Assembly (NCBI GenBank): GCA_002729725.1 | Contig: PBYS01000031.1 | Coordinates: forward strand, 1-64,000 | Direction: 5' to 3' | Source of the DNA: Puniceicoccaceae bacterium | GTDB lineage: Bacteria > Verrucomicrobiota > Verrucomicrobiia > Opitutales > Coraliomargaritaceae | Length of the DNA stretch: 64,000 nucleotides | In this document: positions 33,954 through 61,018 of the stretch, in pieces | Position numbering within the stretch: the first letter of the stretch is position 1 | How the letters are laid out: each line of letters opens with the position of its first letter | The notes under the pieces: generated by a model | Databases searched by the model: none | Told to the model about the DNA's origin: nothing | What the model saw: the letters and a program-made list of their open reading frames with translations, nothing else | Position numbers and translations under genes: made by a program

Positions 33954-34076
33954 GATTTATTCGGCGTTACTGCTTAGTAGGGTTATCACCTTATTGAAGC
34001 ATTGTCACGTTTGGTGAAATTATGTTGACTTGTGCATTCTTCGAAACAGCGTTTATGCAAACGTAACACATTGATT

Positions 34077-34895
34077 ATGAGCAGCAAAACTACTACACCG
34101 CTAACTTTTGACATTAGGCAGGACCTACTGGTTAAGCTTAAGGAACTTCAAGTTAAAACTGGAGCCCGTTCCCTAAGTGAGGTGGTTCGTTATGCGGTTA
34201 GTCATTTGAAGGCTTCAGAATTGAAGTTCGCAAATGCAGCGCACCGGCAAATTTCGGTGCGTTTGTCAGATGAGTTGCGCCAAGGCTTGGTTAAGATGAG
34301 CCAGCGCAAGAAGGTAAGCGTAGGCGAATTGTTGCGGGCTGCTTTGGATTCTCTGCCAGATGATCTTCCTGATTTTGAACCGGCCAGCAAGGTCGTTAAA
34401 AAGAAAGTAGCTAAAAAGAAGCAAGCTCGCAAAGTTACTAGCAAGAAGAAGGCAACGAAGAAAGCGGCCAAGAAGACTGTGAAGAAAGTAGCAAAGAAGA
34501 AAGTAGCAAAGAAGAAAGTAGCCTCCAAGAAGGCGGTGAAAAAGAAGGTCGCTAAGAAAACTGCTGTGAAGAAAACTGTCGCTAAGAAAGCTGCAAAAAA
34601 GGCGGTGAAGACGGTGGCGAAGAAGGCTGTCAAAAAGAAAGCTGTTAAGAAAACTGCTATTAAGAAAAAAGCAGCGAAGAAGGCCGTGAAAAAGAAGGTC
34701 GCTAAGAAAACTGCCGCGAAGAAAACAGCGAAGAAGGTCGTTAAGAAAATAGCGAAGGCGGCTGTGAAGAAAACAGCGAAGAAGGTGGCTAAAAAGTCTG
34801 TGAAGGCTCCATCGACTCGCAAGCTTGCGGCTAAGAAAACGGCCAAAAGGTCCGTCAAGAAGAAGGCCGCGAAGCGTAAGACTTCGAAGAAGTAG
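34077..34895 (+). CDS. Tandem RHH protein with histone H1-like Lys/Ala tail
   Basis: 272 aa. Two ribbon-helix-helix-like units: LTFDIRQDLLVKLKELQVKTGARSLSEVVRYAVSHL (about 9-44) and ISVRLSDELRQGLVKMSQRK with SVGELLRAALDSL (about 60-95). From about residue 105 to the end it is a tail of KKVAKK, KKAVKK and AAKKT repeats like eukaryotic H1 and bacterial AlgP/Hc1 tails. The first part would bind specific or semi-specific DNA; the tail binds DNA or RNA by charge. A nucleoid protein is inferred. ATG 34077 is used; an upstream GTG at 34032 is in frame. It is followed by a terminator. Confidence 0.85.
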   Translation: MSSKTTTPLTFDIRQDLLVKLKELQVKTGARSLSEVVRYAVSHLKASELKFANAAHRQISVRLSDELRQGLVKMSQRKKVSVGELLRAALDSLPDDLPDFEPASKVVKKKVAKKKQARKVTSKKKATKKAAKKTVKKVAKKKVAKKKVASKKAVKKKVAKKTAVKKTVAKKAAKKAVKTVAKKAVKKKAVKKTAIKKKAAKKAVKKKVAKKTAAKKTAKKVVKKIAKAAVKKTAKKVAKKSVKAPSTRKLAAKKTAKRSVKKKAAKRKTSKK

Positions 34896-45314: not shown

Positions 45315-46328
45315 ATGTTTTACCGTCGCGATATTGAAGATAAGAAAAGGCCTAAGCCCATGCGGTCATTTTCTCCCGACGTTGTAGTTGGTTTTGAGCC
45401 TGCTAAGCATTCTAAAAAGGGAAATACGCTTTGGTTTGTGGCGGCAGTTTTTTTGATGATCACGGTGATAGCTGCGCTAATCGTTATTTTGCAGCTCTAT
45501 TTCTCCCATGAGCGTAAAAACGTCGTGAGTTCCGAAGGAATCGGGAATGCCGAACAATTGGAGCGCCGCCTTGCGGAGCAGATGGAGGCCGCTCGCGCGG
45601 CAGAGGACTCGCGTGCCAGTCGTGCGCCCGATGCATATGAGCTATTATCGGAACCGAAGCTGTTGCAGGCTTATCTAAGTGCAAATGGTGGTCGAGAGGA
45701 GCTTTTTTCACTGGAGACTATGCAATTGGAGGGGCAAGTCACTTGGGCGGGGCAGCGGCAGGCATTTGAATTGTTTAAGCTCAACTCAAATTTGATGCGA
45801 TTGACATTAAATGATGGCGAAAGGACGACCGCCTTTGGCTTTGATGGTCAGTCATTTTGGCAGTCCACTGAAGATGAATCCATGGCTGGCGGCGTCAGTT
45901 ACAGTTTGCTGAGCCTAGCTGAGCAGGAGCGTTTCTTTGCTTGTCGCCGCTTTTTTGATCCTTTGATGGCTTATGCATTGCGTGGCCAAGGGACCTTACA
46001 AGTCATTGAGTTTGGAGAATGGCAGGGGAAAACTGCGATTCGTGTGCAACTACGTGGTGCTAGTTCAAATAGAATTGATGTGTTTGTGAGTCCGAAGACT
46101 TTGCGAGTGATCGGGCTGGTTGAAAGAGTTCGAGCCACCGGTGTGGAACGTTCCGTCGCATATAGTGATTTTCAGAATGTGGATGGCTACTATATCCCAT
46201 TTCGCCGTGAAGCAATGCTTGCTGGTGAAATTGTTTATGACATGAAGGTCACTTCATGTCGTCCGAATGCAGATGTGCCCTCGGCGCTTTTCATGCTCCC
46301 AGACCAATTGGCCAACTCGGCGCGCTAG
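45315..46328 (+). CDS. Membrane-anchored LolA-like protein, paralogue 1
   Basis: 337 aa. One N-terminal membrane segment (about 38-60), a charged helical linker, then a domain beginning LLQAYLSANGGREELFSLETMQ and containing RFFDPLMAYALRGQG, LRVIGLVERV and the motif YSDFQNVDGYYIPFR. This AYL-ANGG ... DF-VDGY-PF pattern is like outer-membrane lipoprotein-sorting (LolA-like) folds. GAGG lies 9 nt before the ATG. Two related genes follow. Confidence 0.7.
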   Translation: MFYRRDIEDKKRPKPMRSFSPDVVVGFEPAKHSKKGNTLWFVAAVFLMITVIAALIVILQLYFSHERKNVVSSEGIGNAEQLERRLAEQMEAARAAEDSRASRAPDAYELLSEPKLLQAYLSANGGREELFSLETMQLEGQVTWAGQRQAFELFKLNSNLMRLTLNDGERTTAFGFDGQSFWQSTEDESMAGGVSYSLLSLAEQERFFACRRFFDPLMAYALRGQGTLQVIEFGEWQGKTAIRVQLRGASSNRIDVFVSPKTLRVIGLVERVRATGVERSVAYSDFQNVDGYYIPFRREAMLAGEIVYDMKVTSCRPNADVPSALFMLPDQLANSAR

Positions 46329-46406: not shown

Positions 46407-47303
46407 ATGGAAGTGAATCAACCTAGACGAATGTTTAGCCTGCGATGGCTAGTAGCGGTCTCTATTTTCTTTCTCGCGCTACTCAGTGTGGCGATTTGGT
46501 TTATGTGGCCACGTGGTACAGTTGAAGTAGATCCATACGTTCGAGATTATGGAACTTTGGAGCAATTGACACGGTTCTCGAACTTTCGCTTGGCCTATTT
46601 GCGAGCGAATGGGGGGGAGGCTTCGTTGGACAGTTTACAGAGTGTGAGGGTGACAGGTGTTTTTGAGAGTGGAGGGCAGAGTTTGCCTTTTTTTTCGCTT
46701 AAGCGTCGCCCGAGTCAGAGCATCACTACGATCACATTTCCTAATTACGAGCTCACTTATGTTGTGAATGGCGATCTTATTTGGCAGCGCTTACTCGTTC
46801 CTGGGGCGGCTCCGCTCTATGAAGTGAAGACGGGGGATGAAGCGGCAGCGCTCGCTCGCATGGGTGATTTTTTCGATCCGATTATGCGAGTTTTGCTTTT
46901 TGATGAAGGCACTATAGAACGCCTGTCTCCGAGTAGTTGGATGGGGACTCCTGCTGTGAAGGTTGAATTCATTACAAAGGATGGAGATATGCGTGCCTAC
47001 GCGTATGTGGAAATTGAGAACATGCGGCCACTGGTCAGAGTGGAAGAACTTGCAGGTGGGCAAGAGCGGAAAGTTCTCTATAGTGATTACCGGTCCGTGA
47101 GTGGAATGCAGGAGCCTTTCTTAGTCGAGACCTTCCTGAATGATGTGCTTGAGAGTCGAGTGATTTTAGAAAAGAGTGGCGTCAATGTTGGAGCGGTTGC
47201 CTCTTTGTTTCAGCCGCCTCAGGACTTGGTGCTCCTGCAAATCGAGGAAATGTCACCTGCGTCGGTGAACTCAGCAGCCGAGGCGCCAACGACGTCAGAA
47301 TGA
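46407..47303 (+). CDS. Membrane-anchored LolA-like protein, paralogue 2
   Basis: 298 aa, N-terminal membrane segment (about 14-34). Shares with paralogue 3 the stretches LTRFSNFRLAYLRANGGEASL, LPFFSLKRRPSQSITT, YELTYVVNGDLIWQR, MGDFFDPIMRVLLF and the hallmark SDYRSVSGMQEPFLVET. Periplasmic domain, probably LolA-like. Function unknown. Confidence 0.7.
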   Translation: MEVNQPRRMFSLRWLVAVSIFFLALLSVAIWFMWPRGTVEVDPYVRDYGTLEQLTRFSNFRLAYLRANGGEASLDSLQSVRVTGVFESGGQSLPFFSLKRRPSQSITTITFPNYELTYVVNGDLIWQRLLVPGAAPLYEVKTGDEAAALARMGDFFDPIMRVLLFDEGTIERLSPSSWMGTPAVKVEFITKDGDMRAYAYVEIENMRPLVRVEELAGGQERKVLYSDYRSVSGMQEPFLVETFLNDVLESRVILEKSGVNVGAVASLFQPPQDLVLLQIEEMSPASVNSAAEAPTTSE

Positions 47304-47340: not shown

Positions 47341-48231
47341 TTAGTGCGTCTGTTGTGGCAGTTTGTAGTTAACATTGATTTCAGCTTCTTGTGTCGAGTC
47401 TGCAAGTTGCTCTGGATAATCGAATAGCGATAGAATTGCACCAATATTAGCTTCGCACTTTTCGATGATAATTTGATTTTGCAATACTTCGTCTATGTAG
47501 GTTTCGACCTTAAAGGGTTCCTGCATGCCGGCTACGTCGCGATAGTCGTTATATAGAGTCTTGCGTATGCGCCCGTCTGGCAGTTGCTCGATTCGAGCCA
47601 GTTGATGCATGGTGCGGATATCGAAATAGGACGTCGCTTGCCGGTTAAATTCATCGGGGGCAAAGTTCACCTTCAATGTCTCGGTGCCTTGCCATTGGCT
47701 CGGAGATAAGTGCTCAATTTTGCCTTGATTGAGGAGTAATACGCTCATGGTCGAATCGAAGAATTTTCCCATTTGAGCTAGTGATTGACCTTCTGGGCCT
47801 GTTTTTAGTTCGTATTTAGGTGTTTCTCCTTCTTTTTTTACTCGTTGCCAGACAACCGGCCCATTCACACCGAATGTTAACTCGTATTCACGCATTTTAA
47901 ATGTGGTTAAGCTCTTGTCCGGCTGCCGCTTAATCGAGAAAAAAGGCATTTCTTTGCCTTTGCTTATCATCACACCCGCATTGCGAATACTCAATATTTC
48001 TCGAATACTGGCTTCGCCTCCATTTGCTTTGAGGTAAGCTGAACGGAAATTGCTTAGCTGCGTTAACTCCTCCATGGTGCCGTAGGTGTTAGAACTGATC
48101 TCAGCATGTTCGAAAGTGGGCGTGCTAGGCCAAGAAAAATAAATGACGCCAGCGAGTAAGCTACATAGGAATGCAACGCCTGCGTAGGGCCACCACCATT
48201 GATATCGATCATTAATCCACTCTATTAGCAT
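47341..48231 (-). CDS. Membrane-anchored LolA-like protein, paralogue 3
   Basis: 296 aa, convergent to paralogue 2. N-terminal membrane segment (about 15-33). Matches paralogue 2 over most of its length: LTQLSNFRSAYLKANGGEAS, MPFFSIKRQPDKSLTT, YELTFGVNGPVVWQR and NDYRDVAGMQEPFKVET. The inverted placement suggests duplication followed by inversion, or insertion. Function unknown. Confidence 0.7.
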   Translation of the reverse strand: MLIEWINDRYQWWWPYAGVAFLCSLLAGVIYFSWPSTPTFEHAEISSNTYGTMEELTQLSNFRSAYLKANGGEASIREILSIRNAGVMISKGKEMPFFSIKRQPDKSLTTFKMREYELTFGVNGPVVWQRVKKEGETPKYELKTGPEGQSLAQMGKFFDSTMSVLLLNQGKIEHLSPSQWQGTETLKVNFAPDEFNRQATSYFDIRTMHQLARIEQLPDGRIRKTLYNDYRDVAGMQEPFKVETYIDEVLQNQIIIEKCEANIGAILSLFDYPEQLADSTQEAEINVNYKLPQQTH

Positions 48232-48487: not shown

Positions 48488-48991
48488 ATGAATGGACCTA
48501 TATATCGATTCTTGTTTTTGGCCCTATTGGGCCTAGAGGCGATTACCCTGGCTCCTCTAGCCTTCGGTGAACAATCGTCTGCGTTGCCAGCACTTGCTAT
48601 GATTGAGCCGCCAGCTGCGGAATTGGCGGAGCATATGACTCAACTGCAAGTCTATACCCACAAACTATCGCTCTCACTGGCGGCTAATAATCGCCCCTTG
48701 GCTCGATTCTATTTGCATGAGTCGGTGGCCAAGCTCAAGCAGATGCAGGAAATCTTTCCAGAATATGAGGGGCAGCCGATTGCACTCTTGATTGATCGCT
48801 TGGCGCTCGAGTCTTATCGGCCACTGGATACCTTACTACGGCAGGCGGACACAGCTACCAGCAGCCAGGGGTTTGATCATGCGCTTGAAGTTATAGTGAA
48901 AGCCTGTAATGCCTGCCATCTTTCCTGCGAGGCTCCGATTCGAATTCAACGTAATCACAGCAACCCGTTTATGCAGGATTTTAATCCATAA
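48488..48991 (+). CDS. Secreted cytochrome c'-like haem protein
   Basis: 167 aa. Signal peptide (MNGPIYRFLFLALLGLEAI, cleavage near AFG-EQ), a four-helix-like body, and one c-type haem motif CNACH in VIVKACNACHLSCEAPIRI near the C-terminus, ending NPFMQDFNP. This layout is that of cytochrome c'-type or small c-type electron-transfer proteins. ATG 48488 is chosen over GTG 48467. It is 21 nt upstream of the HtrA-like gene. Confidence 0.75.
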   Translation: MNGPIYRFLFLALLGLEAITLAPLAFGEQSSALPALAMIEPPAAELAEHMTQLQVYTHKLSLSLAANNRPLARFYLHESVAKLKQMQEIFPEYEGQPIALLIDRLALESYRPLDTLLRQADTATSSQGFDHALEVIVKACNACHLSCEAPIRIQRNHSNPFMQDFNP

Positions 48992-49012
48992 GTGGCGGTG
49001 GCCTTTTTTATC

Positions 49013-50053
49013 ATGCAAAAGCTGCAATTTATCATTCTACTGCTTTGTTTGTGGGGCCGTGTGTGCTGTGCAGCTGAGGCTGTGGTGCCGGTCATTCCCA
49101 CTATGGTTACTGTGCGCGCGCGCACTGGGGCGGACGTAGCAGAGGACTCGACTGTGCTACGTCGAAGCTTGGGATTTATCGTAGAGCAAGAGGGCTTTTT
49201 GCTGACCACGTATGAGAGTTTAACCGTTCCGGAAACTGGCACACTTTTGCCTCGAATCGAGGTGCAGTTGAGCTCCGGCGCGGCGCAACAAGCCTACCGC
49301 GCACGAGTGATCGGGGTGGAGCCGACCCTAAATTTCGCAGTTTTGAAGATTGAGAGCGATGCCAGTTTTGAGGTGTCGACGATTTTGGGGGATCGCGAGT
49401 TACTTCCCGGCGAGCCGATCTTCGCACTCACTCAAGCGGATCGACCCGAGCTGCATTTAGTAAGTGGGCGTTTGCAGTCTTTAAATAGTAAAGAGTGCTA
49501 TCAACAAGACCTGACTGCCACCATGTTAGCGGCTGAGATTGAGATCCCGCCTTCAGGTATCGGTGGCCCGGTCTTTGATGGCACTGGCGCGGTGATCGGA
49601 ATGTATACTGGTTATCATCCGCCCGAGGATGAAGACGAACACCTGGATGAGGAGGCGGAACTGACTCACATCTTACCTATCTTTCTGGCATTCAATATTT
49701 ACGATAGCATCAAGCAACGCCAAAGCTTGGCCTCGCCTTGGACTGGATTCTCCGTGCGTCCCCTAAATGCCATGGAGCAGCAGCAGTTCCCTATTGCTCA
49801 GGGCAAGTTTACTGGCGGTATTGCGCTGGAATATATTTGGGAGAATAGTCCCGCCCAAGCGATGGGCTTAAAGGTCGACGACATCTTACTCCGTTTCGCC
49901 TATTATCCGATTCATTCTCCTGCTGATTTCCAAAAGTGGCTCTACCTGTATGGGGTCGGGCGCACGGTAAAGTTTTTTATACTTCGTGAGGGAGAGATTT
50001 TGCTGCAGGAATATACCATCGAGGAACGGCCTGCTTGGGCGATCCCGCAGTAG
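49013..50053 (+). CDS. HtrA/DegP-like protein, catalytically degenerate
   Basis: 346 aa. Signal peptide (MQKLQFIILLLCLWGRVCC, cleavage near AEA), a trypsin-like domain (about 25-235) and a PDZ domain (about 240-340, GIALEYIWENSPAQAMGLKVDDILL). The catalytic sites are lost: the usual GNSGGP is PPSGIGGPVFD (Ser replaced by Ile), the His motif region reads GFLLTTYESL, and the Asp motif reads NFAVLKIE. It is probably a binding or scaffold protein rather than a protease. ATG 49013 is preferred; GTG 48992 directly follows the upstream stop. Confidence 0.8.
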   Translation: MQKLQFIILLLCLWGRVCCAAEAVVPVIPTMVTVRARTGADVAEDSTVLRRSLGFIVEQEGFLLTTYESLTVPETGTLLPRIEVQLSSGAAQQAYRARVIGVEPTLNFAVLKIESDASFEVSTILGDRELLPGEPIFALTQADRPELHLVSGRLQSLNSKECYQQDLTATMLAAEIEIPPSGIGGPVFDGTGAVIGMYTGYHPPEDEDEHLDEEAELTHILPIFLAFNIYDSIKQRQSLASPWTGFSVRPLNAMEQQQFPIAQGKFTGGIALEYIWENSPAQAMGLKVDDILLRFAYYPIHSPADFQKWLYLYGVGRTVKFFILREGEILLQEYTIEERPAWAIPQ

Positions 50054-50071: not shown

Positions 50072-50103
50072 AAAAAAACGCGCTCTCGTTATGAGAGCGC
50101 GTT
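50072..50103 (-). terminator. Terminator of csp
   Basis: 11-bp stem aacgcgctctc (50077-50087) with gagagcgcgtt (50093-50103), followed on the minus strand by a T-run (complement of the A-run at 50072-50078). Confidence 0.9.
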
Positions 50104-50128: not shown

Positions 50129-50332
50129 TTATGCAGGTGTGACTTCTGTCGCACATGGTCCCTTTGGACCGCTGCCGATTTCGAAAGATACTTGTTGACC
50201 GTCTTCGAGGGAGGCATAGCCGTCCATTTTGATTTCAGAGTGGTGGACAAAGAGATCTTTGCCGCCATCTTCTGGTGTGATGAATCCGTAGCCTTTTTCA
50301 GCGTCGAACCATTTTACGTTTCCTGTGCTCAT
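50129..50332 (-). CDS. Cold-shock protein (CspA family)
   Basis: 67-aa single OB-fold RNA chaperone. RNP1 is KGYGFI in [20 protein letters not shown]2 is LFVHHS. Ends [19 protein letters not shown]. Followed by a strong terminator. Confidence 0.97.
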
Positions 50333-55166: not shown

Positions 55167-60938
<5,772 letters not shown>

Positions 60939-61018
60939 GGATAGTGGAACTTTGAGCATTATTTTGCAGAGGTCGAATCCCAGATGAATTTATTTGAATA
61001 TTTTTGTCGGGACGGGGT

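Follow-up and report, generated by a model that had tools for sequence, protein, structure and literature searches.

An HtrA-like pseudoprotease family whose genes usually adjoin a gene for a CxxCH protein

What does an HtrA-like protein do when its cutting residues are gone, its PDZ domain is kept, and the gene directly upstream encodes a putative haem-binding protein? The question is raised by two genes, for proteins P0001 and P0002 (Table 1), that lie in the window, i.e., the whole analysed stretch of DNA, 64,000 nucleotides of contig PBYS01000031.1 from a Puniceicoccaceae bacterium. The coordinates and the distance of 21 nt given for the genes in a preliminary description of the locus are confirmed, the distance being counted from the stop of P0001 to the ATG of P0002. 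The two-gene unit stands alone: the upstream neighbour, at 47341–48231 on the minus strand, is divergent, and on the other side lies a terminator-like hairpin, sites of this kind numbering four, compared with 2.8 expected in shuffles. Both proteins are called secreted here in the sense of signal-like N-termini, judged by eye.

Table 1. Coordinates of the two-gene unit, its predicted sequence features and its downstream border (positions in the window)
Feature	Position	Strand	Remarks
CNACH ORF, start options	48467 (GTG) or 48488 (ATG); end 48991	+	
Secreted CxxCH protein P0001, 167 aa	48488–48991	+	signal-like N-terminus; four predicted helices; one CNACH at end of helix 4; class-II-cytochrome-like
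Met50 codon	48635–48637	+	invariant in 10/10 aligned relatives; candidate sixth haem ligand
CNACH codons (C140, C143, H144)	48905–48919	+	CxxCH kept in 10/10 aligned relatives
21-nt spacer between both genes	48992–49012	+	downstream frame open from GTG at 48992
HtrA-like ORF, start options	48992 (GTG) or 49013 (ATG); end 50053	+	
HtrA-like pseudoprotease P0002, 346 aa	49013–50053	+	signal-like N-terminus; degenerate trypsin-like domain ~50–200; single PDZ ~241–330
Glu68, place of catalytic His	49214–49216	+	by alignment
Asn107, place of catalytic Asp	49331–49333	+	by alignment
ECYQ motif, residues 161–164	49493–49504	+	Cys162 invariant in 8/8 members
Ile183, place of nucleophile Ser	49559–49561	+	place of oxyanion Gly, two residues earlier, is Ser181
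Acidic, His-bearing loop, residues ~201–219	49613–49669	+	by alignment
Invariant SPWTGFSV, residues 241–248	49733–49756	+	PDZ region
Terminator-like hairpin	50077–50103	-	behind convergent cold-shock-type ORF 50129–50332 (-); bounds the two-gene unit downstream

The upstream neighbour and the ORF at 46407–47303 (+), adjoining on opposite strands, encode proteins of ~297 aa that are similar by eye and have a hydrophobic N-terminal stretch; a third, looser relative precedes this pair at 45315–46328 (+), and a Pfam search with the three proteins gave no match below 0.2. Elsewhere in the window, an ORF of 1930 aa at 55167–60959 (-) resembles, by eye, two UvrA proteins fused into one chain, and the ORF at 34032–34895 (+) has a long lysine/alanine-rich tail with KK-repeats.

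P0002 matches Trypsin_2 (E 4.2e-14) and PDZ_2 (E 1.2e-06) of Pfam, both above the curated cut-off; an intact PDZ domain, as had been proposed, is supported. Its AlphaFold model (mean pLDDT 80.7) matches chains of DegS, DegQ, and DegP in a Foldseek search, with the best E 2.9e-21; these belong to the HtrA/Do family, which we take to be MEROPS S1C. The preliminary description had also held that the Ser, His, and Asp of the protease are changed, and two alignments agree with it. The phmmer alignment with DegP-like PDB chains, read by eye, places Glu68, Asn107, and Ile183 at the His, Asp, and Ser positions, respectively. The MAFFT alignment with 62 HtrA-like loci gives the same three letters for P0002, while 57 of the 62 loci have H/D/S. 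These loci, found with P0002 or with the family profile (L002–L004, L006–L034, L040–L065, L081–L084), served as controls, with triads read at the fetched loci and the weak own-genome match L005 left out; they comprise 57 proteins with an intact His-Asp-Ser triad and five that form another inactive group. A triad at shifted positions is not supported by column conservation among the seven full-length relatives described below: within residues 24–218, no column has His, Ser, or Asp in at least six of the seven, and the first conserved column of this kind is H219, beyond the protease core, with Tyr in one member. As judged from the aligned residues, P0002 is, with near certainty, a pseudoprotease of the HtrA fold.

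Seven further members came from searches of relatives and from a scan of genome contigs, in which 3 of 41 candidate stretches were confirmed. The family is rare and consists of P0002, six proteins from other verrucomicrobial genomes, and one from Teredinibacter. The source genomes are the Opitutaceae bacterium BACL24 MAG (G148, on the same contig as L074), a Verrucomicrobiales MAG (L073), four genomes from one family within the window's class (L067, L068, L069, L080), and Teredinibacter sp. ISS155 (L072). Identity to P0002 is 42–52%, and PF13365 and PF13180 are present in all eight members. The letters at the places of the triad are ENI, TNM, ANI, EGG, QGA, SDA, KNI, and -NI, so that catalytic Ser and His are missing throughout and Asp is retained in L069 only. 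At the place of the oxyanion Gly the members have, in the same order, S, S, S, G, T, A, E, and S, i.e., Gly is lost in seven of them, compared with GxSGG in 57/57 intact controls. A frameshift in the N-terminal third splits the HtrA-like gene of G148, and Lys at the His place lies, by eye, in the separate N-terminal frame; whether this frameshift (L039/L066/L074, contig C28) is a sequencing error or a real loss is indistinguishable from a single assembly.

Random decay of one gene is rejected, since the losses are shared by eight diverged members (seven open frames and one split frame) and the codon positions show a selective pattern: in all six pairs tested, differences are fewest at position 2 and most frequent at position 3, e.g., 0.40/0.32/0.68 for positions 1/2/3 between the window and L067. 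In a tree of 39 rows (eight of the family, five of the other inactive group, and 26 of the 57 intact controls), the family forms one side of a branch with support 100/100, the tree program warning of unusual make-up in four family rows and of long branches meeting between the family and the other inactive group. The Teredinibacter protein is the sole member found outside the verrucomicrobial genomes, yet it branches from within their members (99/91), and the family occurs in 1 of 144 genomes of its bacterial family at E<=1e-30; the nesting suggests that this copy was acquired by horizontal transfer. The pair as cargo of mobile elements receives no support, as none of 30 candidate stretches in viral contigs was confirmed and the plasmid search gave no match at 1e-20.

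The second inactive HtrA-like group, from the same order (L016, L017, L019, L023, L025), has the triads SNG, NNG, and TNG and forms one clade (99/98) separate from the P0002 family; a CxxCH-coding frame is seen near one of its five members (L025). Apparently, HtrA inactivation has occurred at least twice among these proteins.

Comparison of the two domains reveals an inverted distribution of constraint. Mean identity among the seven full-length members is 60% for the PDZ domain vs. 40% for the protease domain, and the PDZ value is higher in 21/21 pairs. Among the 57 intact controls, 28 of 1540 usable pairs have the higher value in the PDZ domain, as does none of the 124 control pairs with protease identity of 0.33–0.50. 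The second inactive group has a higher PDZ value in one of ten pairs, hence inactive HtrA proteins do not in general show the inversion. At the level of sequence, these comparisons show the PDZ domain of the P0002 family to be under stronger purifying selection than its protease core.

Three local features accompany this pattern. The stretch SPWTGFSV of the PDZ domain is invariant in all eight members; its place presumably is that of the carboxylate-binding (GLGF-type) loop. Glu161, Cys162, Tyr163, and Gln164 (ECYQ) are likewise invariant (8/8) and align with a stretch that we take to be the L3 sensor loop of DegP/DegS. Where intact HtrA proteins presumably have the L2 loop, the specificity loop, all eight members carry 4–9 Asp/Glu and 1–3 His within 25 aa; the 57 controls have 0–3 acidic residues (none in 45 proteins) and lack His. 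The acidic loop varies in length and make-up, with 27% mean identity and no invariant His, H219 being present in 7/8 members.

The conserved pairing of the two genes, which had been put forward as a check of the preliminary description, is borne out both by adjacency and by co-occurrence. A CxxCH gene lies directly upstream of the pseudoprotease gene in seven of the eight members, with an ATGA overlap in L067, L069, L073, and L080 and gaps of 12, 21, and 38 nt, measured to the assigned ATG, in the three other pairs; among the 62 controls, a CxxCH-coding frame of at least 80 aa is seen within the short fetched flanks of two loci. In a bacterial family of 195 genomes, where the best 5 or 10 candidates per genome were scored, the pseudoprotease profile matches strongly (E<=3.9e-135) in G318, G361, G496, and G861, and four weaker matches (E 1.7e-27 to 3.2e-26) are intact-triad HtrA proteins; the CxxCH profile is strong (E<=1.3e-74) in the same four genomes, with a weak extra match in G801 (1.1e-7). 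In the window's own family of 43 genomes, strong pseudoprotease matches (E<=4.4e-80; next best 6.2e-12) and the CxxCH protein (E<=0.01) are both confined to two genomes, G000 and G148. Given independent genomes, the chance of identical genome sets is 1.7e-8 (195 genomes) and 1.1e-3 (43 genomes), the genomes being not fully independent. The exception is Teredinibacter, with no CxxCH partner beside the gene, nor elsewhere in the genome at E<=0.01. Conversely, no HtrA-like ORF is visible in the fetched flanks (~1.5 kb) of three weaker CxxCH relatives, L036, L037, and L071. As far as gene order and profile matches go, the pairing of the pseudoprotease with the CxxCH protein is real and conserved.

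The CxxCH protein is less easily placed. P0001 is modelled as a four-helix bundle (mean pLDDT 79.6, the first ~40 residues poor), with helices predicted at residues 43–65, 69–89, 98–119, and 126–146, and C140–H144 at the end of helix 4. Similarity to class II cytochromes c (PF01322) is weak throughout: there is a sub-threshold match in one of six paired members (E 0.4) and in four of four further proteins, one paired and three unpaired (E 0.0035–0.14, all below the gathering cut-off), the best score, 18.7 bits vs. the cut-off of 26.5, coming from an unpaired relative. A profile of paired and unpaired proteins retrieves cytochrome c'-type chains as 19 of 28 PDB matches (E 0.34–1.5, below three unrelated matches), many of the 19 being variants alike in length and score, and the eight PDB matches of the paired-only profile include no cytochrome c'. 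NCBIfam gave no match for the three CxxCH proteins submitted, and Foldseek no match to the P0001 model at E<=0.001. VIA-align of the model gives Z of 12.5 and below, the level expected of unrelated helical bundles; the NaxLS entries 6r6m, 6r6o, and 6r6n (Z 12.1, 11.9, and 11.3) are the sole c-type cytochromes recognised by title among the 50 rows listed, and Z values as high are found for designed and unrelated bundles. Assignment of P0001 to a named cytochrome family is not supported, given the lack of an NCBIfam match, the sub-threshold Pfam scores, and the structural matches at background level. Still, it is likely that P0001 binds haem, in view of the CxxCH motif, the predicted helical bundle, and two matches to PF01578 (cytochrome c assembly protein) in the window's genome.

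Direct contact between the partners was considered in two forms. Docking by charge is unsupported, because net charge is negative for 7/7 cytochromes and 7/7 full-length HtrA-like proteins (the HtrA-like protein of G148 left out), that is, for all members computed. The C-terminal tail of the cytochrome, NPFxQxF in P0001, might, by its sequence, be a ligand of the PDZ domain. At aligned columns, His58 and the NP ahead of the tail are found in 7/7 paired proteins vs. 0/3 unpaired relatives. All three unpaired relatives in the alignment share the NQxFxP part of the tail, and extra C-terminal residues are present in two paired members, hence the fit of the tail into the PDZ groove is not compelling.

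What the pair does is best, if tentatively, explained by a PDZ-centred periplasmic adaptor that works with a class-II-like cytochrome, the two genes forming a compact unit for an envelope protein pair. The trypsin-like body would be a platform for structure, perhaps as a trimer, and in the periplasm a single conserved peptide would be bound as ligand by the PDZ groove. The CxxCH protein would be a mono-haem class-II-like cytochrome with His144 as the proximal and Met50 as a possible distal ligand, and the pseudoprotease may bind, position, or stabilise this co-inherited protein; additional control, dependent on metal or redox state, may come from the acidic/His loop and from Cys162, which is invariant. 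As Teredinibacter keeps the SPWTGFSV loop with no detectable CxxCH partner, the PDZ ligand may be something other than the cytochrome. The earlier suggestion of a periplasmic redox or scaffold module gains indirect support in its scaffold half, from the inverted constraint and the invariant PDZ loop, and little in its redox half, with one of the eight members having no CxxCH partner. A more elaborate version, in which redox state or NO/O2 is sensed by the cytochrome and signalled to the pseudo-HtrA, whose PDZ groove then captures or releases a conserved peptide, is doubtful; its coupling parts would be the acidic/His loop and the invariant Cys162, which lies in the former sensor loop, HtrA-style allostery being retained and catalysis dropped.

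Four other roles may be set against the adaptor. Metal handling, in which the dead protease domain binds metal through the acidic/His loop and Cys162 and the metal is oxidised or reduced by the cytochrome, has a precedent in MamO, described as an HtrA-derived pseudoprotease that binds a transition metal and acts together with MamE, a protein of HtrA type (PMC4794232), and MamE itself joins trypsin-like, PDZ, and haem domains (PMC3971196). The loop sets all eight members apart from the 57 controls, but its variability and the lack of an invariant His fit a metal site poorly. With regard to a MamO-type di-histidine, residues 24–218 contain no His column common to six of the seven full-length members. 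P0002 scores 31.6 bits with the MamO family of NCBIfam (NF040961; cut-off 800) and has a PDZ domain, whereas neither "PDZ" nor "heme" occurs in the main text of the MamO paper (PMC4794232); we regard this role as unlikely. A regulatory role, improbable in our estimate, would have the pseudoprotease hetero-oligomerise with intact HtrA/DegP proteins and tune them, with the cytochrome signalling redox state or small gases. The window's genome does encode HtrA-like proteins with intact triads (L002, L003, L004), and MamO is reported to be needed for MamE-dependent proteolysis with its own triad dispensable and the active site of MamE required (PMC4794232). However, HtrA-like matches (E<=0.001) are found in 37 of the 43 genomes of the window's family, while the pseudoprotease family is in two, so such a regulator would be accessory at best.

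The tight coupling of the genes and their co-inheritance would also suit a periplasmic chaperone dedicated to the cytochrome, a holdase for folding of the CxxCH protein or for haem insertion that would itself lack a redox role; HtrA proteins are described with both proteolytic and chaperone activities (PMC6892219). Yet CxxCH proteins of this kind occur without the pseudoprotease, as no HtrA-like ORF is visible within the fetched ~1.5 kb around L036, L037, and L071, and the Teredinibacter pseudoprotease occurs with no detectable CxxCH client, which leaves a dedicated chaperone with a low probability. Least credible is a protease with new catalysis, for which Cys162 or another residue would be the nucleophile: the invariance of all four ECYQ residues speaks for it, but residues 24–218 have no His or Asp column shared by at least six of the seven full-length members, hence no conserved Cys-His pair is seen.

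The loss of all three cutting residues, with the PDZ domain kept and a CxxCH gene usually adjoining, suggests that a protease body has been reused as a binding scaffold; we infer this molecular role of P0002 from sequence comparison and predicted fold. If it is true, a second pseudo-HtrA family, with a CxxCH partner, would mean that the HtrA fold has more than once been turned into a binding platform without catalysis, and the pair, being small and secreted, would make the role of an HtrA without protease activity directly testable. In the open-licence literature we did not find an earlier description of the pairing; the same literature yielded no HtrA-type pseudoprotease with a cytochrome partner, an absence that is weak evidence, and, by titles and abstract starts, no natural bacterial pseudo-HtrA other than MamO. 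Judged in this way, the remaining papers concern magnetosomes or magnetotactic bacteria, HtrA proteins whose normal form is active, or unrelated topics. Natural pseudo-HtrA proteins seem little described.

Among known systems, the HtrA/Do proteins (DegP, DegQ, DegS, MucD, AlgW) share with the P0002 family the secreted trypsin-like domain followed by PDZ and the same predicted fold. They differ in that the family has no catalytic His and Ser (8/8) and mostly no oxyanion Gly (7/8), with constraint shifted to the PDZ domain; accordingly, P0002 scores 65.2 bits with the HtrA/Do model TIGR02037 of NCBIfam, below the cut-off of 416.2. The P0001 model resembles class II cytochromes c (cytochrome c'; NaxLS Kusta0087/0088) in its predicted four-helix bundle with CxxCH ending helix 4, although no scanned protein of the P0001 group reaches the PF01322 cut-off. 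MamE and its magnetochrome domains resemble the pair in bringing trypsin-like, PDZ, and c-type haem parts into one system; in MamE, however, the haem domains are fused in tandem and the active site is required for proteolysis (PMC3971196; PMC4794232), whereas here the CxxCH protein and the pseudoprotease are encoded by separate genes. MamO is, like the P0002 family, a pseudo-HtrA within a system that also has haem proteins. It is described as having a degenerate triad with a non-glycine residue at position 193, in which His and Asp are kept and Thr is the predicted nucleophile (H116, D149, T225), and as carrying a TauE transporter domain (PMC4794232). The eight members of the P0002 family, by contrast, have trypsin-like and PDZ families alone in Pfam at E<=0.01, with no TauE domain, and a different partner. 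On our best reading, MamO is the closest known analogue of P0002, yet the P0002 family is separate from it.
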